64,000 nt of DNA, taken from Winogradskyella undariae (GTDB lineage: Bacteria; Bacteroidota; Bacteroidia; Flavobacteriales; Flavobacteriaceae). Shown here one piece after another: positions 39,620-51,110 of the stretch (position 1 is the first letter of the stretch; every line of letters begins with the position of its first letter). A program made the position numbers and the translations under genes. Under the pieces are notes generated by a model, which saw nothing but the letters and a program-made list of their open reading frames with translations, made no database searches and was not told the origin of the DNA. The DNA lies in the NCBI RefSeq assembly GCF_013285155.1, contig NZ_JABTEL010000001.1, positions 1-64,000 on the forward strand, read 5' to 3'.

Positions 39620-42600
39620 ATGAAAACAAAACTACATTTTGTTTTGTCATTATCCTTCTTTTTAACTGTATTTTCGGTAATGGCTCAGCAGAGTTACTGG
39701 CAAAAAACAGAAAAAAATCAATTAAGGATTAATGGTAATACAACGACTCTTAATTCAAAATTTTATCAAACATATCAATTAGATATTGATAGTTTTAAAG
39801 CGAAACTTGTTAATGCACCATTAAGATCTGCATCAACTTCTGCATCTAATATTACAATATACCTTCCTAATGTAAAAGGAGAATTAGAACCTTTTTCAGT
39901 TGTTGAAACAAGGCTTTTGTCTAAAGAATTAACGGAATTACATCCAAATATTAAAACGTATTTAGGGTTTAGTAAAAAGACGCCAGGTGTAAGAGCTCGT
40001 TTTAGTGTAACACCACAAGGCTTGCAAAGTATGGTGACTTACCCTGGGGATGATATGAATTTCTTAGTACCTCAAAGCAAAACAGATTCAACGTCTTATA
40101 TTGTTTATAGTAGAGCAGCACGAGAAGAGGGATATAAAGATTTTGAATGTTTAACGGAAGATTTCGCTGTAAAAAAGAAAGGTACAACGAACAGCAATAG
40201 AGATGCAAATGATCAATTGCTAAGGACGTTTAGAATAGCCATATCTACAACTGCAGAATATACTAATTTTTGGGATGACGGTAATGCTGCTAATGGAAAT
40301 GCTCAAGAAGATGCTTTAGCTCAGGTAGTTTCAACTTTAAATAGACTTAATGAAGTATTTGAGGTTGATATGGCAGTGTCTTTCACTTTAGTTACAGGTG
40401 AAGAGATTATATATGTAGATGAAGACGACGATCCTTATACAGGAAGTTATAATTCAGAATTACAGTCAACATTAACAAGTGTAATCGGCGAAGAAAACTA
40501 TGATATTGGGCATTTATTTGCTTATGATAATAATAACGGTAATGCAGGTTGTATTGGTTGCGTTTGTGTAGATGGTTCTAAAGGAAGTGGTTTTTCAGCA
40601 CATGAGTTTACGGATAATAACGGAGGTCCTTATATGACTGATTTTTTTGATATTGATTATGTACCACATGAAATGGGTCACCAAATGGGAGCAAATCATA
40701 CATTTTCTAATTCTTCTGAAGGAACAGGTGTAAATGCAGAACCAGGTAGTGGTACAACTATAATGGGGTATGCTGGAATTACTGGTAGTAATGATGTACA
40801 GGATCATTCGGATCCTTATTTTCATTATTATAGTATTACACAAATTTTAAATAATTTAGAAAGTAGAACTTGCTGGCTTGGTACTGCTATTGTTAACAAT
40901 GCGCCAATAGCAGATGCGGGTTCAGATTATACTATCCCTATGGGAACTGCTTTTGTGCTTAAAGGTGATGCAACAGACACTGACACAGATGATGTGCTAA
41001 CCTATACTTGGGAGCAAATAGATGATGGTGTATCGTCATTTTCAAATTTTGGTCCAGATAAGACTTCAGGAGCTGTTTGGAGATCACGACCTCCAAGTAC
41101 CTCAAAGGATCGTTATATGCCGATAATTGAACGTGTAGTTTCTGGTGAATTAACAGAATCTAACCCTGTTGAAACAACTGATAACACTTCTTGGGAGACT
41201 GTGTCTAATGTTGCAAGATCTTTAAATTTTGCACTAACAGTTAGAGATAGAAGTGAGGGTAATGGCATTGGTTTAACACCTCAAAGCGATTTTGATACTA
41301 TGCTTGTAAATGTAGATGCAACAGTAGGTCCGTTTGTTGTAACATCTCAATCTGCCAATGAAACTTGGGATGCTGAATCTAGCCAGGTCGTTACTTGGGA
41401 TGTTGCAGGTACAGATACAGGTAACGTAAATACATCAACAGTTAATATTTTGCTATCTACTGATGGTGGATATACGTATCCTTACCTTTTGGTTTCTGCT
41501 GTTCCTAATGATGGAGAACAGATCATAACAGTGCCTATCATTAATGGAGGTTCTTCTACTGTTAGGGTAAAAGTTGAAGCGAATGATAATATTTTTTATG
41601 CTATAAATTCAACAAATTTTAGTATTCAAGAAGCTGAATTTGTATTGAATTATGAAGAAAATAGGGTTGCGGTTTGTTCTCCTGATGATGCCGTGTTTAA
41701 TTTTACTTATAATACCGTCTCAGGGTTTTCTGCAACAACGACATTTAGTGCTCAAGGGTTGCCAACAGGAGCCTCGGTATTATTTTCGCCTTCAGTTGCT
41801 AGTGTGGATGATACAATGGTAATGGTAAATGTAAGTGGAATAGAAAATTTAGCTGCAGGTAATTATCCTTTTACAATAGAAGCAACATCGGGATCAATAA
41901 TAAAGACGATCGATTTAGATTTTGATGTATTTACTTCTAATTTTTCTCCATTAAATTTATTAACTCCTACTAATGGATCTGCAGGTGTTTTAGTAGGTTC
42001 AGTTGTTTTTACTTGGGAAGAAGATGTTAACGCAACATCTTATGAGATTGATATTGCTACAGATTCTGAATTTACAGATGTTATAGAGACTTCTGTTATT
42101 AACAGTCCAACTTATACAATATCTACTTTAAGTTTAATGACTTCTTATTTTTGGAGAGTTAGAGGTATAAATGATTGTGCATTGGGTGGTTTTTCGGTAA
42201 ATAATTTTACGACATCAAGTGTAGATTGTGATTTTTATAGTTCTTTAGATACTCCAATTAATATTTCTGCAGCAGGAAACGTAACTTATACGTCTATATT
42301 AAATATTGTAGAAGAAGGAGTTATTACAGATGTCGCTGTTTTAATAAATATTAGTCATACTTATACTAGTGATTTAGATATCTCTTTAACAAGTCCAAGT
42401 GGAACAACAATAGAATTATCAACAGATAATGGAGGGAATGAAAATAATTATACCGAAACAATATTTGATTCAGAGGCTTCTGCATCTATTGTTAATGCTT
42501 CTGCTCCATTTACGGGTAGCTTTTTGCCTGAAGGAGATTTGTCATTATTATATGGTGAGCCTTCTGCAGGAAATTGGGTTTTAACAGTGGTAGATGATAC

Positions 42601-42931
42601 GGCACTAGATGGTGGTTCAATTGAAGAATTTACATTAGATTTATGTTTAGAGCCAACCTTATCGGTTGATGAAGTAGCTTTAGATTCTGATTTAACTATT
42701 TATCCTAATCCTAATAATGGTTCTTTTAATATTTTAATCGGTAACCCACAATCTACTAAAATAAAAATTGCTGTTTACGATATTAATGGAAGAAGAATCT
42801 TTGAAGAGCAATTTAATGCCAATCAAAGCTTTGATGAAAAAATAGATTTAAACCAAGTACAGTCTGGTGTCTATTTAATTAAAATTACAGATGGTCTTTT
42901 TGAAAGTATTAAGAAGATTGTAGTTAACTAA
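39620..42931 (+). CDS. Secreted reprolysin-like metalloprotease with P domain and T9SS sorting domain
   Basis: A 1103-residue secreted protease. A Sec signal peptide is followed by a propeptide-like region. The catalytic domain has the complete metzincin motif HEMGHQMGANH at residues 350-360. Beta-sandwich regions follow, including a fibronectin type III-like one near 775-865. A proprotein-convertase P domain covers about 870-1000 (LDISLTSPSGTTIEL). The last 75 residues (LTIYPNPNNGSFNILI ... SGVYLIKIT) are a type A T9SS sorting domain. The protein is exported by T9SS and either surface-anchored or released, and likely digests external protein. Confidence 0.95.
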   Translation: MKTKLHFVLSLSFFLTVFSVMAQQSYWQKTEKNQLRINGNTTTLNSKFYQTYQLDIDSFKAKLVNAPLRSASTSASNITIYLPNVKGELEPFSVVETRLLSKELTELHPNIKTYLGFSKKTPGVRARFSVTPQGLQSMVTYPGDDMNFLVPQSKTDSTSYIVYSRAAREEGYKDFECLTEDFAVKKKGTTNSNRDANDQLLRTFRIAISTTAEYTNFWDDGNAANGNAQEDALAQVVSTLNRLNEVFEVDMAVSFTLVTGEEIIYVDEDDDPYTGSYNSELQSTLTSVIGEENYDIGHLFAYDNNNGNAGCIGCVCVDGSKGSGFSAHEFTDNNGGPYMTDFFDIDYVPHEMGHQMGANHTFSNSSEGTGVNAEPGSGTTIMGYAGITGSNDVQDHSDPYFHYYSITQILNNLESRTCWLGTAIVNNAPIADAGSDYTIPMGTAFVLKGDATDTDTDDVLTYTWEQIDDGVSSFSNFGPDKTSGAVWRSRPPSTSKDRYMPIIERVVSGELTESNPVETTDNTSWETVSNVARSLNFALTVRDRSEGNGIGLTPQSDFDTMLVNVDATVGPFVVTSQSANETWDAESSQVVTWDVAGTDTGNVNTSTVNILLSTDGGYTYPYLLVSAVPNDGEQIITVPIINGGSSTVRVKVEANDNIFYAINSTNFSIQEAEFVLNYEENRVAVCSPDDAVFNFTYNTVSGFSATTTFSAQGLPTGASVLFSPSVASVDDTMVMVNVSGIENLAAGNYPFTIEATSGSIIKTIDLDFDVFTSNFSPLNLLTPTNGSAGVLVGSVVFTWEEDVNATSYEIDIATDSEFTDVIETSVINSPTYTISTLSLMTSYFWRVRGINDCALGGFSVNNFTTSSVDCDFYSSLDTPINISAAGNVTYTSILNIVEEGVITDVAVLINISHTYTSDLDISLTSPSGTTIELSTDNGGNENNYTETIFDSEASASIVNASAPFTGSFLPEGDLSLLYGEPSAGNWVLTVVDDTALDGGSIEEFTLDLCLEPTLSVDEVALDSDLTIYPNPNNGSFNILIGNPQSTKIKIAVYDINGRRIFEEQFNANQSFDEKIDLNQVQSGVYLIKITDGLFESIKKIVVN

Positions 42932-42988: not shown

Positions 42989-43620
42989 TATTTTCCATTA
43001 AATTGATTCATAGTTGTGTTAACTCCGGCTAAAGCAAAAGATTTTACAAGTTCTGCCGAAATTTTTAAGCGCTCCTTAAGTTGTGTGTTTTCTTCATCGG
43101 TCCATTCGCCTAAAACATAATCAATTTGTCGGCCTGTGCTAAATGCATCACTAATACCAAATCTAAAACGGTTATAGCTTCCAGTTTGTAATTTATCTTG
43201 TGTGTCCTTTAGGCCGTTATGGCCTCCGGCACTACCTTTGGTTTTTAGTCTAAGCGATCCAAAAGGAAGATTTAAATCATCGGTTATAACGAGTAGATTT
43301 TCTAAAGGTATTTTTTCTTTCTCTAGCCAATATTTTATAGCCTTTCCACTAAGGTTCATAAATGTACTAGGCTTTAAAAGGATTAAAGTTCTTCCCTTTA
43401 TTTTTAATGTAGCAACATCACCAAGTTTTACTGTTTCAAAGAGAATGTCATTTGTTTCGGCTAAATAATCAAGAATTTTAAAGCCAATGTTGTGTCTGGT
43501 GTTTGCATATTTTTCGCCTATGTTTCCTAAGCCTACGATTAAGAATTTTTTCATTTTATCTTCTTCTGTGCGTTCTGTTTTGTTACTAAAACCAAACCAT
43601 GTTTTTATAAAACTATACAT
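42988..43620 (-). CDS. pth: Peptidyl-tRNA hydrolase
   Basis: It frees tRNA from peptidyl-tRNA released early by ribosomes. Family motifs are FLIVGLGNIGEKYANTRHNIGF, with the catalytic His in RHNIGF, then KPSTFMNLSGKAI, DDLNLPFG and SAGGHNGLKD. The 210-residue form has 22 residues before MKKFLIVGLGN. Flavobacterial relatives often have a similar short basic extension, so the upstream ATG at 43620 is kept, although an internal start at Met23 is possible. Confidence 0.95.
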   Translation of the reverse strand: MYSFIKTWFGFSNKTERTEEDKMKKFLIVGLGNIGEKYANTRHNIGFKILDYLAETNDILFETVKLGDVATLKIKGRTLILLKPSTFMNLSGKAIKYWLEKEKIPLENLLVITDDLNLPFGSLRLKTKGSAGGHNGLKDTQDKLQTGSYNRFRFGISDAFSTGRQIDYVLGEWTDEENTQLKERLKISAELVKSFALAGVNTTMNQFNGK

Positions 43621-43729
43621 ACTGTATTTCTAGTTTGTACAAAAATAAAAAGAAGTTGACTAAAAACTAATTATATCGTTATGGTCTTTGGTTTGTGGAT
43701 TTAGTTTTTGAAGCTGTTTATATACAGAC

Positions 43730-46435
43730 TTACAATTTGTAGCTCACTTTAAACATCAGAATACGAGGTAGAATAAATGTTCTACTATCACTAATTACAA
43801 AAGCGTTGAACGAATTCTGTTGTTTAAAACGTGTATCAAAAAGGTTAGTAGCATTTATCTCAAATCCCCAAGGACTATCTTCAATTTGGTAGAATAACGA
43901 TGCATTTGCCGTGTCAAAAGTGGTTTTGGTATCGAGACTTTTGTTGTTGTAATTATCAAAGGTATAATCTGCTTTAAAGATAAAATCCTTTAAAAAATCG
44001 TATTCTAAGATGACTTCTAATTGGTCATTTTCAAAATTAGAGACGTTATTTAAGGCTTTATAGTTATTAAAATCTTTGGTGTAATTAATCTCTACGTTGG
44101 GATAATTTTTAAAAGATGTTTCTATGCCAATGGTGGAAGCGATAGATTTTGAAATATTAAGATTGGTTTCGTCATTTAAAATTTGATAAAAATCATTATA
44201 ACTAAAACGATTACTCAGGTTATAGCTAATTTTATTTATTTTTTTTGAAATGCGCCCACTAAGCACCCAGTTATGTTCTGGCTGATCAAACATAGTGGTT
44301 GTGTTAAAGGATTCTATACCATTAAGTTCAGAAACTGTTTTTATAGTTTTTAAGCGTTTATTAAAACTGGTGTTTAAGTTAAAGTTAAGACCTCTAAACA
44401 AACTAAATTTATAATAACTCAATGTTGCAGAATGATACAACTGATTTTCTAGTTGATTATTGCCTCTATAAACACTATTAAAATTTGAGAGTACAAAATT
44501 ATTAGCTAATTGGTTAATACCAGGAAAGCGAGCATTCAGTTTGTATTTAAAATTGAGTTTTTCGCTATTATTAAATTCTACTTTTGTTGTGAATTGTGGC
44601 AAAACTAGATTTTTAGAAAACGTTTCTGAGTCTTCAAACTGTTGCGTTCGCCATAAATACCCATGATAAAACACAGCGGGTTTAAACGTGGCAATGCCAA
44701 TTTGAAATTTATATTCTAATCCCAAATAGGTGTCTATAAAACTATAGCCAAAATCATTGCCAAAACCAGCAGAGCTAAAATTATTAATACTACCATCATT
44801 AAGTAATTGTACATCTTCATTGTAGAAATCGTTAAAAGATGTATTAACGCCTAAACTTGTATAGAGGTGGTTAAAGTTATTAATTACCCAATAGTCTTTT
44901 ATAATGGCGTTAAAATTATGCGACGTTGATCTTTTAGTCTGTAGAATATTGTAAACAGCATCATCTTCCAAAGGAATTAAGCCTTGTAAAATCTGCTGAT
45001 TAGTTAGCCACTCGGTAATCGGTTTATCATTCTGAAAATTATAAGTCGCTTCTAAGGTTGCTGTGTGCGCTTTAGATAATTTGCGACTGTAAGTAATGTT
45101 TTGTTTTAGATTAAGTGCCGTAACATCTGTTAAAGTCGTAATGCTATTGTTTTGGTCTGGGTTCATTGTATTTACAAAACCATGACTATCATTATTGGTC
45201 ACCTTAACAAAAGCGTTATAAGCAAAATCTTCTTTATAACTTGGGTCGTAATCTATGGTTACTTTACCAATGGTAAAAAAGTTGTTGAGATTATTGGCAA
45301 CTGTTCTATCTTCAGTAAAAGGGTCTGCAATATTTTGGTAAGAATTTAGCGTATTGCTAGCTGTTTGGGTCTTAGAGTTAGATGTAATTAAATAACCACT
45401 AATATCTGTATGTTTAGAAACGGATTGCCTAATATTTAAAGCTCCAAATTGGTTAGTATTATCTGTAAAATCTTGGTTATTGAGGTATTGCGCAAAATCG
45501 CTATTAAATAAACTAAAATAATTACCAGCATCATCTAGTAGTTTACCAAAACCACCTTCAAATTCTAAATAATCTCTAAAACTAAAACTTTTTATTCCTT
45601 GGTTGTTTAAGTCGCCTATAAAATTAACATTGGTTTTTGGGCTGTAATAAAACAAATTAGGATGCAACAAATATCGCTCTTCAATGCCAGCACCAGCTTC
45701 TATATCACCAAACACAAATTTCTTTTTGTCTTCTTTTAATAAGATATTCATTGCCATATCCTCAGAGTCTTGCAAGCCTTTTAGCATAGCCACCTCATTG
45801 TAATTATCTAAAACTTCTATTTTTTCTACGGCATCTGCTGGTATATTATTTACAGCCAATTTACTATTGCCTGTAAAAAAGGTTTTGTTTTCTACTAAGA
45901 CTTTGGTTACTTTTTTGCCATTTACCATCACATTACCTGCTCTATCTACTTCTACGCCTGGTAATTTTTTTAAAGCATCTCTTAGTTTGCGTTCTTCTCC
46001 AGTTACAAATTTAGAAACATCGTAAGTGATGGTGTCTTTTTTTACGGTTATTGGTGGTGTGTATTTTATGTTAACCTCGTCTAGTTGGTCTGGGTTTTCT
46101 TTGAGGATGAAGTTTTTAGAGAGGTTTTGGTCTGTGGTAGTTATAATAATCGTTTGTGGTTTGTAGCCCAAATAACTTACCGTGAGTTCGTAGGTTTGGT
46201 TTTTTGCTAAGCCAAGTTTGTAGCTGCCATCGTTTTCGGTGATGGCGAATTTAACGTCTTGGTCGTCTGCTTTGGGGATGGCTAGGATGTTGGAGTAGCT
46301 TAGAGGGTTTTGTAAGGTGTCTGATACTTTACCTGAGACTTTGATTTGTTGGGCATTAATAAAAGAAGAAAATCCTGCCAAAAATATCAGGATTACAACA
46401 ATATATTTTGATGAAAATTTTAACAAAGCTTTCAA
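43730..46435 (-). CDS. Outer-membrane beta-barrel protein with carboxypeptidase-like regulatory domain
   Basis: A 901-residue exported protein. After the signal peptide (ending FINAQQ), residues 31-112 form a CarboxypepD_reg-like beta-sandwich (VSGKVSDTLQNPLSYSNI). A plug-like region follows with LRDALKKLPGVEVDRAGNVM and KVLVENKTFFTG. The remaining 650 residues are barrel strands; the C-terminus ends in an aromatic MFKVSYKL strand. It resembles the TonB-receptor-like 'outer membrane beta-barrel' family rather than classical SusC. It is last in a five-gene minus-strand cluster, and overlaps the GLPGLI gene upstream by 4 bases, so the two are coupled. Confidence 0.85.
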   Translation of the reverse strand: MKALLKFSSKYIVVILIFLAGFSSFINAQQIKVSGKVSDTLQNPLSYSNILAIPKADDQDVKFAITENDGSYKLGLAKNQTYELTVSYLGYKPQTIIITTTDQNLSKNFILKENPDQLDEVNIKYTPPITVKKDTITYDVSKFVTGEERKLRDALKKLPGVEVDRAGNVMVNGKKVTKVLVENKTFFTGNSKLAVNNIPADAVEKIEVLDNYNEVAMLKGLQDSEDMAMNILLKEDKKKFVFGDIEAGAGIEERYLLHPNLFYYSPKTNVNFIGDLNNQGIKSFSFRDYLEFEGGFGKLLDDAGNYFSLFNSDFAQYLNNQDFTDNTNQFGALNIRQSVSKHTDISGYLITSNSKTQTASNTLNSYQNIADPFTEDRTVANNLNNFFTIGKVTIDYDPSYKEDFAYNAFVKVTNNDSHGFVNTMNPDQNNSITTLTDVTALNLKQNITYSRKLSKAHTATLEATYNFQNDKPITEWLTNQQILQGLIPLEDDAVYNILQTKRSTSHNFNAIIKDYWVINNFNHLYTSLGVNTSFNDFYNEDVQLLNDGSINNFSSAGFGNDFGYSFIDTYLGLEYKFQIGIATFKPAVFYHGYLWRTQQFEDSETFSKNLVLPQFTTKVEFNNSEKLNFKYKLNARFPGINQLANNFVLSNFNSVYRGNNQLENQLYHSATLSYYKFSLFRGLNFNLNTSFNKRLKTIKTVSELNGIESFNTTTMFDQPEHNWVLSGRISKKINKISYNLSNRFSYNDFYQILNDETNLNISKSIASTIGIETSFKNYPNVEINYTKDFNNYKALNNVSNFENDQLEVILEYDFLKDFIFKADYTFDNYNNKSLDTKTTFDTANASLFYQIEDSPWGFEINATNLFDTRFKQQNSFNAFVISDSRTFILPRILMFKVSYKL

Positions 46436-47160
46436 TATTTATTTTTTCTGTTTGCATATTGTTTAGCAACTATACTGCTAAATTCATCTTCAGAAACTTT
46501 TTCGCCTTTTGTAGGCAATTCTATATCGATTGTTTTATCCTTTTTAAAGAATTCTATTTTTTTCAAAGACGTTATGATGCCATTATTATTAAGCTGTAGA
46601 ATTAAACCTGGCAATCCCCCATAACCATCTGGCCCATAAGGTATTGGAATTTCTGGCGCATACCAAGCTATAACTTCTAATTCGTGTTTGCCTTTAAGGT
46701 TGTTTATAATAATAGTGGTTTTTGCTTTATAACACAGGTAATTATCAATTTGTAATGTGTCTTTAGTTAAAATCCAGTCTATTTTATTTTTTTTTATAAG
46801 GTAATTCACACCAGCGAATTCTAGTTCGTGTAAAACTATTTCAGAACTACTATCAAAGAATATAGTGCCTTTGAAATTAGCAACCCCTTCTGTCATTGCT
46901 TTGACAATAGGATTTACATTACTGTTTAACGATTTATTTTTTTTGTAAAAAGCTTCTCTATCATTAAATACTAATTGATATTCGTGCGTTTCAAGATTTT
47001 CTAATATTTTTTTAATAGATTGATCTATATCATCTGAAGTGCCTGATTTATTAATACTTAACGATTCTAATTGTTTACCATAAACCGCATTACCTATTTG
47101 GCAAAACATTGATATAGAAAAAAAGTAAAATATTAAGAATGAAATATATTTTTTAGCCAT
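46432..47160 (-). CDS. GLPGLI family protein (A)
   Basis: A 242-residue exported protein with the name-giving motif in YGPDGYGGLPGLILQL near residue 185. A signal peptide (ending MFCQIG) places it in the periplasm. The central strands (KAKTTIIINNLKGKHELEVIAWYAPEIP, in two parts) are typical. The family is found only in Bacteroidota, often next to TonB-type barrels, and has no proven role. Here it lies directly upstream of the barrel gene (ATGA overlap) and downstream of a small exported peptide gene. Confidence 0.9.
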   Translation of the reverse strand: MAKKYISFLIFYFFSISMFCQIGNAVYGKQLESLSINKSGTSDDIDQSIKKILENLETHEYQLVFNDREAFYKKNKSLNSNVNPIVKAMTEGVANFKGTIFFDSSSEIVLHELEFAGVNYLIKKNKIDWILTKDTLQIDNYLCYKAKTTIIINNLKGKHELEVIAWYAPEIPIPYGPDGYGGLPGLILQLNNNGIITSLKKIEFFKKDKTIDIELPTKGEKVSEDEFSSIVAKQYANRKNKY

Positions 47161-47233
47161 AAGCGCATATTTGTAAAAGACAGTTAAAATTTCACCTTTA
47201 ACTGTCTGGATAATTTATTGATTCCAATCCTCT

Positions 47234-47476
47234 TTATTGCCCTCCAGCTTCGTTACAAGCATCATATGCTGCTGCAAACACATTATATGCTGCCATATCT
47301 GATGGAATGATTTGAAGTCTATTGGCCATATCGTTCATGAAATTTTGTTCAGCAGAAGCAGCTACATCAAAACAAGTTCCACTATCTAAATCCTCGTTTT
47401 GTGTATTCGCATTTACCATTAATGAACTACTCATAAACATTACCACAGCCATAAGGCTAAAAATTCTTTTCTTCAT
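47234..47476 (-). CDS. Small exported two-cysteine peptide (A)
   Basis: An 80-residue product. The first 23 residues are a signal peptide whose core FSLMAVVMFM is shared with the peptide encoded at 48338-48580. The mature part has two Cys, 39 residues apart (TCFDVAAS ... DACNEAGGQ), in a mostly helical, acidic sequence, which suggests a disulfide-closed helical hairpin. I do not recognise a family. It lies 73 bases upstream of a GLPGLI gene. Start and signal are supported by the paralogue and by a conserved 5' region. Confidence 0.75.
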   Translation of the reverse strand: MKKRIFSLMAVVMFMSSSLMVNANTQNEDLDSGTCFDVAASAEQNFMNDMANRLQIIPSDMAAYNVFAAAYDACNEAGGQ

Positions 47477-47533
47477 AATTTAAGATTTAAACCTATCATA
47501 TTTTTAACGAAAGGTTGATTAGTAAATAATTTT

Positions 47534-47551
47534 CCCTAGTTAACTATAGGG
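47534..47551. promoter_or_regulatory. CCCTA/TAGGG dyad upstream of peptide A
   Basis: CCCTA (47534-47538) and TAGGG (47547-47551) form an inverted pair 58 bases upstream of the peptide A start. The same pair, with a different spacer, stands 60 bases upstream of peptide B. The sequence from here to the ATG is also conserved between the two genes, so this is probably an operator or part of a conserved promoter/leader. Confidence 0.5.
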
Positions 47552-47615
47552 ATAATAGTTTTTGAAAAACAAGTTGCTTTTAACTCGTCAAACATATTGC
47601 TCAGAAACAAATATT

Positions 47616-48329
47616 TTAATTTTTAAAATATTCTTCAGCTTTTTTGTTCATTTCATCTATAAGCTTATCAGCCTGTTTTTCAGTAATTAATTGATCTTGA
47701 TTTGGTACTTCAATTTTTATATCTTTATCGGTATATTCAATTTTTTTTACATAAAGGGAATAATTTTTTTCTTTTATTTCAAATATTAAACCTGGTAAGC
47801 CATCGTAAACTACTGGGCCATATGACAATGAGATTTTTGGTGCATACCAAGCTTCAACGATTTCACCTTTATTTTTTCCATATTCTATTTCTCCGATTGC
47901 TTTTAAACAAATATAATTTCCGATTTTTTTCTTCTCATTAACTAAATTCCAACTTACTCTTTTTTCGACATCAACTTTTAAGTTTTTGTCTAAAATATTG
48001 TAATCATGAATTAATTTATTTTTACTCTTTATATAAATTCCTTCGATGTTAAGAATTTGATTAATTGTTAATAAGTCCAATTTTGATATCGATGGATCAT
48101 TATATTCGTCTTTTTTGAAAATAGATAAACCTTTAGTTTCATTAACCATTAAAATGTAATTTATTAAATTAGATTTGCTTAATGAACTTTTTAAGATTTT
48201 TTTAAAATTTTCAGGTCCTTTGAGTGTGTCAAAATCAATCGAAATGTTTGATTCGTAGTGAATTTCAATATTTGATTGTGAAAATGAACATATAGGAATA
48301 ATTAGAAATATGAAGTACAATTTTTTCAT
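47616..48329 (-). CDS. GLPGLI family protein (B)
   Basis: A 237-residue exported protein of the same family as the one at 46432-47160, with the motif in YGPVVYDGLPGLIFEI and the preceding EAWYAPKISLSYGP. The signal peptide ends CSFSQS. Overall similarity to copy A is modest outside the motif region, so the two are old paralogues or separately recruited. It lies 8 bases after the peptide B gene and upstream of the peptide A gene. Function is unknown. Confidence 0.9.
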   Translation of the reverse strand: MKKLYFIFLIIPICSFSQSNIEIHYESNISIDFDTLKGPENFKKILKSSLSKSNLINYILMVNETKGLSIFKKDEYNDPSISKLDLLTINQILNIEGIYIKSKNKLIHDYNILDKNLKVDVEKRVSWNLVNEKKKIGNYICLKAIGEIEYGKNKGEIVEAWYAPKISLSYGPVVYDGLPGLIFEIKEKNYSLYVKKIEYTDKDIKIEVPNQDQLITEKQADKLIDEMNKKAEEYFKN

Positions 48330-48337
48330 AAGTATGT

Positions 48338-48580
48338 TTAAGCTTGTTGATTAAATCTGTTTGCTTTTTCTTGTTCGCACAACTCAGCGTATAATAATGT
48401 CATTTGCACTCTTTGAATCGCGGTCGCACCTGTTACAGAACCCCACCATTGAGCATAATAATGCCCTTGCTCAAAACAGGAGGTGGCTTCGAGTTCATAG
48501 CTTTTATTATCCATTTTAGAAGCATTCATGCTTCCCATAAACATTACCACAGCCATAAGGCTAAATACTTTTTTCTTCAT
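48338..48580 (-). CDS. Small exported two-cysteine peptide (B)
   Basis: An 80-residue product, and first gene of the cluster. The signal peptide core FSLMAVVMFM equals that of peptide A, and 30 bases of the coding DNA (48536-48565 and 47433-47462) are identical between them. The mature part differs almost completely (SCFEQGHYYAQWWGSV ... AELCEQEKANRF), but again has two Cys, 33 residues apart, with a Phe following the first. No family is recognised. The gene ends 8 bases before GLPGLI B, so the pair is surely co-transcribed. Confidence 0.78.
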   Translation of the reverse strand: MKKKVFSLMAVVMFMGSMNASKMDNKSYELEATSCFEQGHYYAQWWGSVTGATAIQRVQMTLLYAELCEQEKANRFNQQA

Positions 48581-48639
48581 AATTTAAGACTTTAAACCCA
48601 TCACATTTTTTAAGATAGGTTGGTTAATAACTAATGTCT

Positions 48640-48654
48640 CCCTAAAATTTAGGG
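48640..48654. promoter_or_regulatory. CCCTA/TAGGG dyad upstream of peptide B
   Basis: CCCTA (48640-48644) and TAGGG (48650-48654) flank five A/T bases, 60 bases upstream of the peptide B start, matching the position of the dyad at 47534-47551. Confidence 0.5.
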
Positions 48655-48656
48655 AA

Positions 48657-48718
48657 TAGAAGTCTTTTAAATTTAGAAGTCATTTGTTCTCTCATTAAGA
48701 AAATGAGAAGTAGAAGTC
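48657..48718. repeat. Three direct repeats of TAGAAGTC
   Basis: TAGAAGTC occurs at 48657-48664, 48674-48681 and 48711-48718, just upstream of the dyad in front of the peptide B gene. A partial copy (TAGAAGT) follows at about 48866. The spacing is 17 and 37 bases. It may be a regulator binding array. Confidence 0.4.
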
Positions 48719-48911
48719 ATTTTTTTTGCTATTGTATTCTTTAACAAAATAAAAAGCTTGCGCAAGTTATATGTTTAAACATTTTTTTGTTGGTTGAAAC
48801 ATAAAGAGTGATTTCTAAATTGCTCTAAATGTGGTTTCCAACGCTGTAAATCTAAAAATAAAAAATAGAAGTAGCCAAGGGAATTATGAGAATTTTCTAT
48901 CAATTTTAAGT

Positions 48912-48950
48912 TTACGGTTTTTCCGTAATTACGCTGTGGAAAAACCGTAA
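48912..48950. repeat. Double CCGTAA dyad / 13-bp inverted repeat
   Basis: TTACGG-TTTTT-CCGTAA (48912-48928) is a perfect dyad. TTACGGTTTTTCC (48912-48924) also pairs perfectly with GGAAAAACCGTAA (48938-48950). The two CCGTAATTA blocks lie 22 bases apart, about two helical turns. It looks like an operator for a dimeric regulator, or a hairpin. Confidence 0.5.
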
Positions 48951-49527
48951 TTAAAATCGTGAGATAATTAAAAATTTAACAGTTTTGAGTTTGAGTTTTG
49001 ACGTTAAATTTTTGTGGGTGAATATGTTGTTGCGGTTTTTAAAATAGAATCAATCTTTAAAATTAGGGATTTCAAATAATCATTCACAATAGAGTCTATA
49101 AATCTTTATATCATAACACACTTACTATTAGGGGTTTGGGTAAATATATCTTCTAAAGGGCCACATCCTCTAGATAAATTGAAATCATTTTGGTAGTTAT
49201 TGTCAAGGTTTTTCATTTCAAAATTAATAGATGTTGCTTTTTTATTTTTAAGTTGAAAACAATTAATAGATCATTTAAAATAAATCCAAAAGAGTATAGA
49301 GGCAAGGAATTGAAACTGTTTTGGTCTAGAAAAAAAATCACTTTTATTCCATCATAACAAAGTATTCAGAATAAATATGCATTTTTGTACTTTCAAATTT
49401 GTTAATTCCTAGTGATTTTGAGTGCAATCTAAAGGTTTTAATACTCAAATATTTTAAATAGAGATTATTTTTAATCCTGGTAAGAACATTAATTAGTAAA
49501 CAATAAAATTCAAATAAAAACTTAAAG

Positions 49528-50004
49528 ATGAATCAAAACAAATTACCTGCAGATCCATTAGCACTTATTTTAGGAATATTAGCATTAGTTATGGGTATTG
49601 CTGGTTGTTGCTGTTATGGTATTACGGCAATTATTCCATTAGCAATGTCTATTATTGGTCTGGTGATGGCAAATAAAAGTTTAAGAGAGTTTGGCGAAAA
49701 CCCAGAGGCTTTCAATCCACAGTCTAGAAGTAATGTAAATACCGCAAGGATTATAAATATTATTGCCATTGTACTTAATGGTTTAGTAGTTCTTTTTGCA
49801 CTTGCTGCACTTGCTTTTTATGGTACTTTAGTTTCATCTGCCGTTTTAGATGGTATCCAAAATGGAAATTTTGAAGAAGATGATTATTATTATGAGTCTG
49901 AATACGAAACAACTATAGAGCCAGAGAGTTCTGAAAATTGGGATGATGATGCATATATTATAGAAGAAGAAGAGGTAGATTCAGTTCAGGTTGAAGAATT
50001 ATAA
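49528..50004 (+). CDS. CCC-motif small membrane protein (DUF4190-like)
   Basis: A 158-residue membrane protein with two hydrophobic regions. The first holds GIAGCCCYGITAIIPLAMSIIGLVMA, in two parts, with the triple Cys that names the CCC-motif group of Flavobacteriia. The second lies near residues 75-105. The last 45 residues are strongly acidic (EEDDYYYESEYE ... DAYIIEEEEVDS). The layout resembles DUF4190 proteins. No function is known. A strong terminator follows. Confidence 0.82.
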   Translation: MNQNKLPADPLALILGILALVMGIAGCCCYGITAIIPLAMSIIGLVMANKSLREFGENPEAFNPQSRSNVNTARIINIIAIVLNGLVVLFALAALAFYGTLVSSAVLDGIQNGNFEEDDYYYESEYETTIEPESSENWDDDAYIIEEEEVDSVQVEEL

Positions 50005-50029
50005 AAAAGAAGAGAGACTTTAAAATACA

Positions 50030-50067
50030 AAAACGCGTTTAACTTTTTAAAGTTAGACGCGTTTTTT
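50030..50067 (+). terminator. Terminator after the CCC-motif gene
   Basis: AAAACGCGTTTAACTT (50030-50045) pairs with AAGTTAGACGCGTTTT (50050-50065) with one G-T pair, followed by T bases. The 260 bases from here to 50327 contain no gene; a TATATTTA box near 50222 may be a promoter for the next operon. Confidence 0.85.
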
Positions 50068-50327
50068 GTTTAAATAAAACTTGATTTTCATTCGCTTAAC
50101 GCCAACTAAGCTGTTAGGTGATGTTTTAGAAAAGAAATATATGATTGCCTTGTTATTATTACATTTGGAACGGTAATTGTATTTGTGATGCTTGTAACAT
50201 AAAAAATGCGTCACATTAATTATATTTACAAACTAGAGGTTATGAGTCGAGTAATTTAAGAATAAATTATATCGGAGAGGTAATTAATAGCGAGCGTATG
50301 TGACCGTAAATAACTAGATATAAGAAC

Positions 50328-51110
50328 ATGAAACATTTATTTACTATCATATTATTTTTTGTGGGATTCCAAGCGCCTAATGGTGAGAAGCAATCTGCTT
50401 TTCAAGGTGGCGAATGGTTTAAGTTTGAAATGAGTTATAGTGGTTTTCTAAAAGCAGGTAACGCAACACTATCGGTTAATGAAACAAATTTAAAAGGAAA
50501 ACCTGTTTACCATGTTGTCGGAAAAGGTTGGACCACCGGTGCTATAAAATGGTTTTTTAAAGTAAAAGACCGCTATGAAAGTTATTTTGATAGAGAAACA
50601 GGTGTACCGTATAAATTTATTAGAAAAATAGATGAAGGCGGTCATACCAAAGACATTGAAATTAATTTTGATCATGATTCTAGGTTAGCACAAGTAAAGA
50701 ATCTTAAGAAAAATGAAATAAGTACAGTTTCTACTGAGAAAGATGTTCAAGATATGGTATCCATGTATTATCATCTTAGAAACAAAATTGATATTCCATC
50801 TTTAAAAGTAGGAGATGAAATAAAGACGAATATGTTTTTTGATGAAGAGAATTATGGCTTCAAAATAAAATATTTAGGGAAAGAAATTATTAAGACTGAA
50901 TTTGGTAAAGTTAAAGCGCTTAAGTTTAGACCTTACGTTATGGCAGGTCGTGTATTTAAAGAAGAAGAAAGCTTAACGTTATGGGTAAGCGAGGATAAAA
51001 ATAAAATTCCATTAAAAATAAAAGCAGATTTAGCGGTAGGTTCTTTAAGAGCAGAGTTAGTTGCTTTTAAAGGTTTAAAACATCCGTTTGAAATCATTTA
51101 CAAAGAATAA
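50328..51110 (+). CDS. DUF3108 domain protein
   Basis: A 260-residue exported protein. After a short hydrophobic signal (ending GFQAPNG), the body is a DUF3108 beta-rich fold: GEWFKFEMSYSGFLKAGNA, YHVVGKGWTTGAIKWFFKVKD in two parts, and the C-terminal TLWVSEDKNKIPLKIKADLAVG. The family is widespread in Gram-negative bacteria, probably periplasmic and of beta-barrel or lipocalin-like shape, with no proven function. It is the first gene of a tight operon with the tryptophan dioxygenase-like, M23 and pgi genes (spacings 7, 13 and 8 bases). Confidence 0.88.
   Translation: MKHLFTIILFFVGFQAPNGEKQSAFQGGEWFKFEMSYSGFLKAGNATLSVNETNLKGKPVYHVVGKGWTTGAIKWFFKVKDRYESYFDRETGVPYKFIRKIDEGGHTKDIEINFDHDSRLAQVKNLKKNEISTVSTEKDVQDMVSMYYHLRNKIDIPSLKVGDEIKTNMFFDEENYGFKIKYLGKEIIKTEFGKVKALKFRPYVMAGRVFKEEESLTLWVSEDKNKIPLKIKADLAVGSLRAELVAFKGLKHPFEIIYKE

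Follow-up and report, generated by a model that had tools for sequence, protein, structure and literature searches.

Polymorphic toxin-immunity arrays and bacteriocin-immunity pairs are built around a constant core and variable matched pairs, with remnants of the core between cassettes and partner genes that occur without a peptide. Class II microcins are defined by a double-glycine leader and a dedicated ABC exporter, and TonB-dependent barrels with an N-terminal extension (NTE) and a plug usually act in import. In Myxococcus, the TonB-dependent transporter Oar is needed for the secretion of protein (PMC6434023). For the stand-alone GLPGLI family, no function was found in the literature searched, the scope of which stopped short of subscription papers and preprints, and the family names Porph_ging, PF09697 and TIGR01200 were not mentioned there. 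Here, we analyze a locus on the minus strand of a 64,000-nucleotide (nt) stretch of Winogradskyella undariae DNA (hereafter, the window), in which two modules, each consisting of an exported peptide with 2 cysteines and a GLPGLI protein, are followed by an outer-membrane barrel. Judged by comparison with its relatives, the locus appears to be one allele of a recurrent, repeatedly reshuffled system of swappable cassettes.

This gene order, which had been proposed from the letters alone (the sequence-only reading), was confirmed by the open reading frames (ORFs) and by profile scans. Peptide 1 (48338..48580), recognized from the ORF list and from relatives, and peptide 2 (47234..47476) are each 80 amino acids (aa) long and carry a Sec-type leader, as judged by eye, and 2 cysteines; the mature part is variable in the former and comprises 2 predicted helices in the latter. 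Their respective partners, GLPGLI-1 (237 aa, 47616..48329) and GLPGLI-2 (242 aa, 46432..47160), score 111.3 and 141 bits against TIGR01200 (cut-off, 50 bits) and both contain the GLPGLI motif. Consecutive genes from peptide 1 to GLPGLI-2 are separated by gaps of 8, 139, and 73 nt, and the TTG start of the barrel gene (901 aa, 43730..46435) overlaps the GLPGLI-2 stop. An AACC...GGTT dyad (48591..48627) lies directly before peptide 1 and a diverged copy precedes peptide 2. None of the 5 proteins was assigned to a known anti-phage defense system by the PADLOC profiles (0 families). While the genes themselves stood as originally placed, the span given for the locus ended too early, the conserved promoter and RNA leader region reaching approximately position 48952.

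The pairing of peptide and GLPGLI genes recurs in relatives far more often than expected by chance. In the genus, an exported ORF of 45 to 110 aa with 2 cysteines is found just upstream of 23 of the 33 GLPGLI genes, compared to 2 of 188 other genes (Fisher p 3e-21); outside the genus, the respective figures are 16/36 and 2/103 (Fisher p 2e-9). The genus figure is partly biased, because 8 of the loci (L032 to L039) were fetched through the dyad near the peptides, the remaining genus loci having been retrieved through the barrel. The outside set consists of 21 loci, 20 collected by barrel similarity and one (L016) first found with peptide 2. One of the 2 exceptions among the other genes of the genus is itself such a peptide, located directly before the barrel (L042): in this locus, from genome G314, an extra two-cysteine peptide (1227-1514) is inserted between the GLPGLI and barrel genes. 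Counted from the peptide side, 52 of 55 intact peptides adjoin an intact GLPGLI gene, whereas the remaining 3 correspond to a neighbor of a broken GLPGLI gene (L040), the L042 peptide before the barrel, and an ORF of another type (L056), which is probably not a peptide of this kind. The repeated pairing put forward in the sequence-only reading is therefore present, rather than lacking, in relatives both within and outside the genus.

The 2 members of each pair also vary together. In a comparison of 25 cassettes (300 pairs), the leaders are on average 47% identical, the mature peptides 22%, and the GLPGLI proteins 33%, and the identities of mature peptides and GLPGLI proteins are correlated (Mantel r 0.66, 0/5000 permutations), including upon removal of 3 near-duplicate cassettes (r 0.37, 0/5000 permutations). 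The N-terminal half of GLPGLI is more variable than the C-terminal half (20% vs 40% identity), and its correlation with the peptide is no weaker (r 0.64 vs 0.55). By this measure, each GLPGLI protein co-varies with its own peptide, the two forming a matched pair; as in toxin-immunity pairs, the co-varying partner is encoded beside the peptide, in 52 of the 55 cases.

Peptides 1 and 2 resemble each other only over approximately residues 1 to 39 (44-45% identity), and the leader MKKkiFSLMAVVMF is common to many relatives, their mature parts being different. In the mature part, the ratio of the proportions of nonsynonymous and synonymous differences (pN/pS) is 0.22-0.30 in 3 allele pairs and 0.48-0.79 in 4 more distant pairs, and the ratio of the corresponding substitution rates (dN/dS) is 0.12-0.67 in 6 pairs, one further pair being saturated. 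One very close pair, with 8 changes, yielded a mature pN/pS of 1.9 and a dN/dS of 1.96, and the leader of peptide 1 compared between the window and genome G339 gave a pN/pS of approximately 1.1. By these measures, the small ORFs behave as real genes. Searches with the peptides against Pfam, NCBIfam, and PADLOC gave no match above the cut-off, the Pfam and NCBIfam scans of the locus proteins detected no toxin domain or known bacteriocin family, and the peptide fold search returned no significant match. Classical cationic antimicrobial peptides are disfavored because the mature parts are acidic. As for class II microcins, inspection of the peptides in alignment A5 by eye revealed no GG before the mature part, and general scans, which were not a systematic search, recognized no ABC exporter beside the window genes; ABC-like ORFs occur near loci L016 and L094.

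A barrel search (E<=1e-150) yielded matches in 21 of 68 genomes of the genus, with an island-type barrel (at least 64% identity) in 19, including that of the window, and only a more distant barrel in 2; the island-type barrel is split or partial in G318, G336, and G348. In the fetched loci, the barrel is preceded by a stack of peptide-GLPGLI cassettes, the number and type of which differ from genome to genome, from one pair each in G301 and G357 to 6 GLPGLI genes with 3 intact peptides, and a fourth with a doubtful start, in G311. Seven remnants of the barrel 5' end, all confined to residues 4-99, are located after internal GLPGLI genes in 6 islands (2 in G311 and one each in G352, G345, G337, G339, and G049), with another discerned by eye in L085. 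These remnants between cassettes suggest that the arrays grew by recombination in the 5' end of the barrel gene. By number alone, the dyad does not differ significantly from its reversed control (10 sites in 9 of 60 genomes vs 9 sites in 8 genomes), but all 10 real sites lie within a peptide island or, in G304, an island remnant. Relatives of the barrel system are also present in other genera: in one of these (g128), the same plan is found in 5 loci (L115 to L119), clear in 4 and doubtful in L116, and the leader MKKLVFTALAVVAFSG is common to L117 and L118.

What the matched partner might do is suggested by its predicted fold. The model of GLPGLI-2 (predicted local distance difference test score, pLDDT, 89.7) adopts a bowl/half-barrel fold that, over most of the domain, most closely resembles the N-terminal bowl of PNGase F-II (4r4x, 4r4z, 7zgn) and, second to it, half-barrels of the VioE/LolA/RseB type. 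In other proteins, bowls and half-barrels of the kind predicted here bind lipids or peptide segments. GLPGLI genes evolve with a dN/dS of 0.11-0.35, although dS exceeds 1 in 3 of the 7 comparisons.

By contrast to the cassettes, the mature barrel is nearly constant. It matches PF13715 (CarbopepD_reg_2, 46.6 bits) and PF13620 (CarboxypepD_reg, 42 bits) above the cut-offs and the Plug profile below it (17.2 vs 23.9 bits), and residues 5-209 match the NTE and plug of a SusC homologue (E 2.5e-9); hence, the CarboxypepD_reg extension and plug of Oar/SusC-type TonB-dependent transporters are both present. Among plasmid records, none covers 80% of the barrel, and the best 10 of 30 are TonB receptors or similar proteins with at most 31.6% identity. 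Across 15 sequences, the first approximately 30 residues, corresponding to the signal peptide, vary (0.23 identity), whereas later 30-residue blocks are 0.68-0.96 identical. The dN/dS of the barrel gene is 0.06-0.08. Because usual importers have the same NTE and plug and a GLPGLI bowl could, on its predicted structure, accept cargo, the secreted peptide might be a scavenger that binds an outside ligand, the complex being imported by the barrel through TonB and received by GLPGLI as periplasmic acceptor. Receptors that take up a ligand usually vary together with it, but here the identity of the mature barrel is mostly ~85%, even between genus cassettes whose peptides are of unrelated types. Since the variation sits in the periplasmic GLPGLI protein and not in the outer-membrane barrel, this argues against receptor-ligand uptake, which we consider improbable, and for GLPGLI as a holder or immunity protein.

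The matched co-variation, the predicted bowl, the Oar-like N-terminal layout of the barrel, and the near-constant presence of an intact GLPGLI gene beside the peptide would all be expected if the system served carriage and export only, as the sequence-only reading had it, with GLPGLI as a chaperone delivering the peptide to the barrel and the peptide acting as a signal, adhesin, or scavenging factor devoid of antagonism. However, as many as 28 of the 69 intact GLPGLI genes persist with no intact peptide gene before them, an upper bound because the peptides of L096 and L098 are visible but were missed by the filter, and one such copy, compared between G311 and G337, has a dN/dS of 0.11, indicative of purifying selection. 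Moreover, different cassettes are stacked in one genome, an arrangement more typical of antagonism. We therefore regard carriage and export alone as possible but rather unlikely. The earlier interpretation is thus partly supported: recurrent pairing, co-variation, the predicted bowl fold, and the Oar-type N-terminus of the barrel agree with it, whereas cassette swapping, peptide-free GLPGLI genes, and the RNA leader were not part of it.

Peptide-free units take several forms. No peptide is present at L099, L101, and L104, the last of which (G002) contains 5 tandem GLPGLI genes before the barrel; L097 and L102 are truncated at the end of a contig. In the source genome, L018 (1106-8462; C11:428-435 kb) comprises a response regulator and a kinase divergent from genes for a 130-aa exported protein, 2 GLPGLI proteins, and a related barrel, and 3 class-level relatives (L120 to L122) contain a similar kinase/regulator-linked GLPGLI-barrel unit without peptides. 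The location of these units next to a sensor kinase and a response regulator would be in line with a peptide that controls or inhibits the GLPGLI-barrel unit, for instance by modulating envelope stress, its variability reflecting drift or phage pressure. A study on Riemerella names 5 GLPGLI genes among the direct targets of PhoP (PMC9603813), which points in the same direction. Nevertheless, this view does not readily account for the stacking of cassettes, the co-variation of cognate partners, or the remnants of the barrel, and we deem regulation by the peptide the least probable of the explanations considered.

Upstream of the array, the minus strand carries a leader missed in the sequence-only reading. 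In the order of transcription, it consists of an operator-like inverted repeat, TTACGGTTTTTCC / GGAAAAACCGTAA (48912..48952), which was read directly, is present in relatives, and has a putative role only; a promoter-like site (48847..48866) with a T-rich tract, interrupted here, followed by TAGATTTA, a -7 box of the TAnnTTTG type; a hairpin RNA region of ~105 nt (48748..48854) with the loop TAGAAATC (48810-48817) and a weak terminator-like hairpin (48756-48767); and 3 GACTTCT repeats (48712-48718, 48675-48681, and 48658-48664; 48658..48718 overall) complementary to the loop with one mismatch. TAnnTTTG is the -7 box of Flavobacterium sigma-A in a transcriptome study (PMC9723704). The hairpin scores 96 bits (E 1.6e-17) against RNA model R1, its row having belonged to the training set A3. 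The window copy is imperfect, given the loop mismatch and the weak terminator stem, and the leader script placed no terminator here.

The same plan, namely, a T-run, a TAnnTTTG-type box, a hairpin of ~100 nt, a terminator, and then repeats, precedes many peptide genes. Among 39 upstream regions, promoter and terminator could be placed in 30 (24 by script and 6 by hand); 9 further regions, beside more distant barrels, lack a leader of this kind, although L103 has a simple tandem repeat (L096 is outside this set). Among the regions examined, the leader belongs to the genus and nearer relatives. In a first set, 17 of 28 upstream regions contained a 7-8-mer repeated at least 3 times with its reverse complement further upstream, compared to 16/2800 Markov shuffles and 4/169 upstream regions of other genes, all 4 involving AT-rich words. 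The loop is complementary to at least 3 copies in its own array in 28 of 30 leaders, but in only 32/630 comparisons across seed classes and 1/90 non-loop stretches, and 0/20000 permutations reached the observed mean. Six seed classes were distinguished (GACTTCT, CTCGTTA, TAGACTG, CGGCTT, GACTTTG, and CTTGTA), in which the loop and its 3-5 repeats changed together. In A3, a MAFFT alignment of 15 sequences, 93% of cells pair and 7 of 22 pairs changed on both sides (reached by 4/500 shuffles); the covariation score is 0.223 versus 0.147 in shuffled alignments (0/500) and at most 0.092 when slid, whereas one of the 5 covariation measures, concerning further pair types, is not clearly above shuffles (42/500). 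Because the terminator sits between loop and repeats and stem changes are compensated, we favor the complementarity acting as RNA-RNA pairing rather than the repeats serving as DNA sites. The T-run directly before the -7 box is mostly 8-14 T long, up to 19, and differs in length between orthologues; since it is variable in the leaders orthologous to window positions 48847-48866, it is a candidate phase-variable promoter. In 197.5 kb of such loci, including the leaders, there are only 8 runs of at least 10 T or A.

Searched alone in 199 genomes, R1 matched 5 besides the window genome, which is a lower bound because strict filters missed leaders seen directly in G071, G168, G069, G091, G040, and the 735-kb island of G141. 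Two of the 5 (G134 and G014) encode a small cysteine-containing ORF, a GLPGLI protein, and a barrel only 22-23% identical to that of the window, the small ORF of G014 as listed starting inside its leader; in G141 the match heads a 428-aa protein, in G063 there is no recognizable peptide, and G112 was not inspected. GACTTCT triples, too, are not significant in number: there are 26 sites, which overlap, in 12 of 68 genomes, compared to 24 control sites, not inspected, in 16 genomes. The real triples lie at peptide leaders except in G330. In that genome (L083, 8580-8684, minus strand), the RNA and GACTTCT repeats head a 268-aa exported ORF, the leader region of which contains an early stop, and no GLPGLI pair; the RNA module may therefore be reused. 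The G141 match (L111, ~633.7 kb) lies upstream of the 428-aa gene, which is exported and lipoprotein-like, with no GLPGLI gene within 10 kb. Over window positions 43000-50500, Rfam gave 6 weak matches (best E 0.012), none of which reached the gathering score or coincided with the leader; 7 related loci gave no match. No title on a leader RNA of this plan came up in the literature searched, and the Flavobacterium psychrophilum transcriptome study describes other small RNAs (PMC9723704).

Collectively, we tentatively favor, as plausible though short of probable, a modular cell-envelope peptide system with a secreted peptide, a cognate GLPGLI holder that also confers immunity, export by the barrel, and leader-limited expression. 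The peptide would leave the cytoplasm by Sec and then form its disulfide; its own GLPGLI, a LolA/RseB-like bowl, would bind it in the periplasm, keep it harmless, and pass it to the barrel for translocation across the outer membrane, analogous to that of PopC by Oar. The most likely targets would be neighbors without the matching GLPGLI, which would double as immunity. Most transcripts would end at the internal terminator, producing a short hairpin RNA, the loop of which would pair with the repeats in read-through mRNA and thereby limit expression. A cognate periplasmic holder is the best reading of GLPGLI, and a role in immunity is probable. The GLPGLI-barrel units without a peptide show that GLPGLI has other roles, which makes immunity the less certain half. 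That we are dealing with a new class altogether, in which polymorphic disulfide-stapled helical-hairpin peptides act between related Flavobacteriaceae, with LolA-fold GLPGLI proteins as immunity factors or carriers, one TonB-type channel, and a new kind of RNA control by a promoter-proximal, terminated hairpin RNA with an apical loop code of 6-8 nt in at least 6 versions, is a more doubtful proposition.

The source assembly (G000, 4.2 Mb) encodes 7 GLPGLI proteins, 2 at the window locus, 2 at L018, and one each at L019, L020, and L021, followed by a full-length related barrel at L018 and L019, one split into 2 ORFs at L021, and a shortened one at L020. Small cysteine-containing ORFs precede GLPGLI at L019 (5546-5770) and L021 (5655-5945), with leaders out of frame by eye, and may be decayed or wrongly assembled. 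A search of the genome contigs with GLPGLI-1 returned one locus (L015), rejected as a leader match to an unrelated protein. In several genomes, the islands are flanked by what we take to be pth and HGD-CCC-HPPD genes; the HGD- and HPPD-like genes, presumably homogentisate-dioxygenase-like and hydroxyphenylpyruvate-dioxygenase-like, are not among the ORFs at window positions 48600-50330 (the peptide leader, a CCC-motif gene, and the next gene). On the other side, a 1103-aa reprolysin-like metallopeptidase with a type IX secretion system sorting tail (39620-42931) adjoins the island, and related proteins are encoded next to the islands of G318 and G339. Several relatives, but not the window, have a conserved exported ORF of 124-140 aa (MKLRITLVFVLALGSFC...) just outside the first cassette (L034 6327-6746, L035 6869-7288, L036 10623-11045, L040 6071-6493, and L041 11663-12037).

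GLPGLI is a common Bacteroidota family, and its matched variable peptides give it a concrete, testable function. Should the peptides be antagonistic, they would represent an unrecognized class of weapons or recognition factors with a narrow range; even without antagonism, the system would carry or secrete peptides in a way that has not been described. Little is known about RNA regulation in this phylum, and the leader, with a loop code that changes in step with its repeats, lends itself to testing RNA-RNA specificity directly. With no matching title in the literature searched for bacteriocins of these bacteria, and no counterpart in the libraries, we provisionally consider the system and its RNA leader to be new.

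Its parts nonetheless have relatives. The window barrel shares the CarboxypepD_reg N-terminal extension and plug with Oar of the Myxococcus Oar/PopC system; according to the Oar study, PopC has no signal peptide, whereas here the presumed cargo is a Sec-type two-cysteine peptide with a GLPGLI partner, the likeness of the barrels being one of N-terminal layout in sequence (PMC6434023). The window GLPGLI proteins are members of TIGR01200/PF09697 (Porph_ging), here as the variable partner of a small peptide; their predicted fold is that of the PNGase F-II N-terminal domain over most of its length and, in predicted structure only and at 4-15% identity, resembles the half-barrels of the LolA/LolB/RseB/MucB group (with VioE and EPDR1). 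In overall organization, there is a parallel with toxin-immunity arrays: the peptide-GLPGLI islands, although they gave no match to a toxin domain or known bacteriocin family, display the same constant core, matched variable pairs, core remnants, and peptide-free partner genes.

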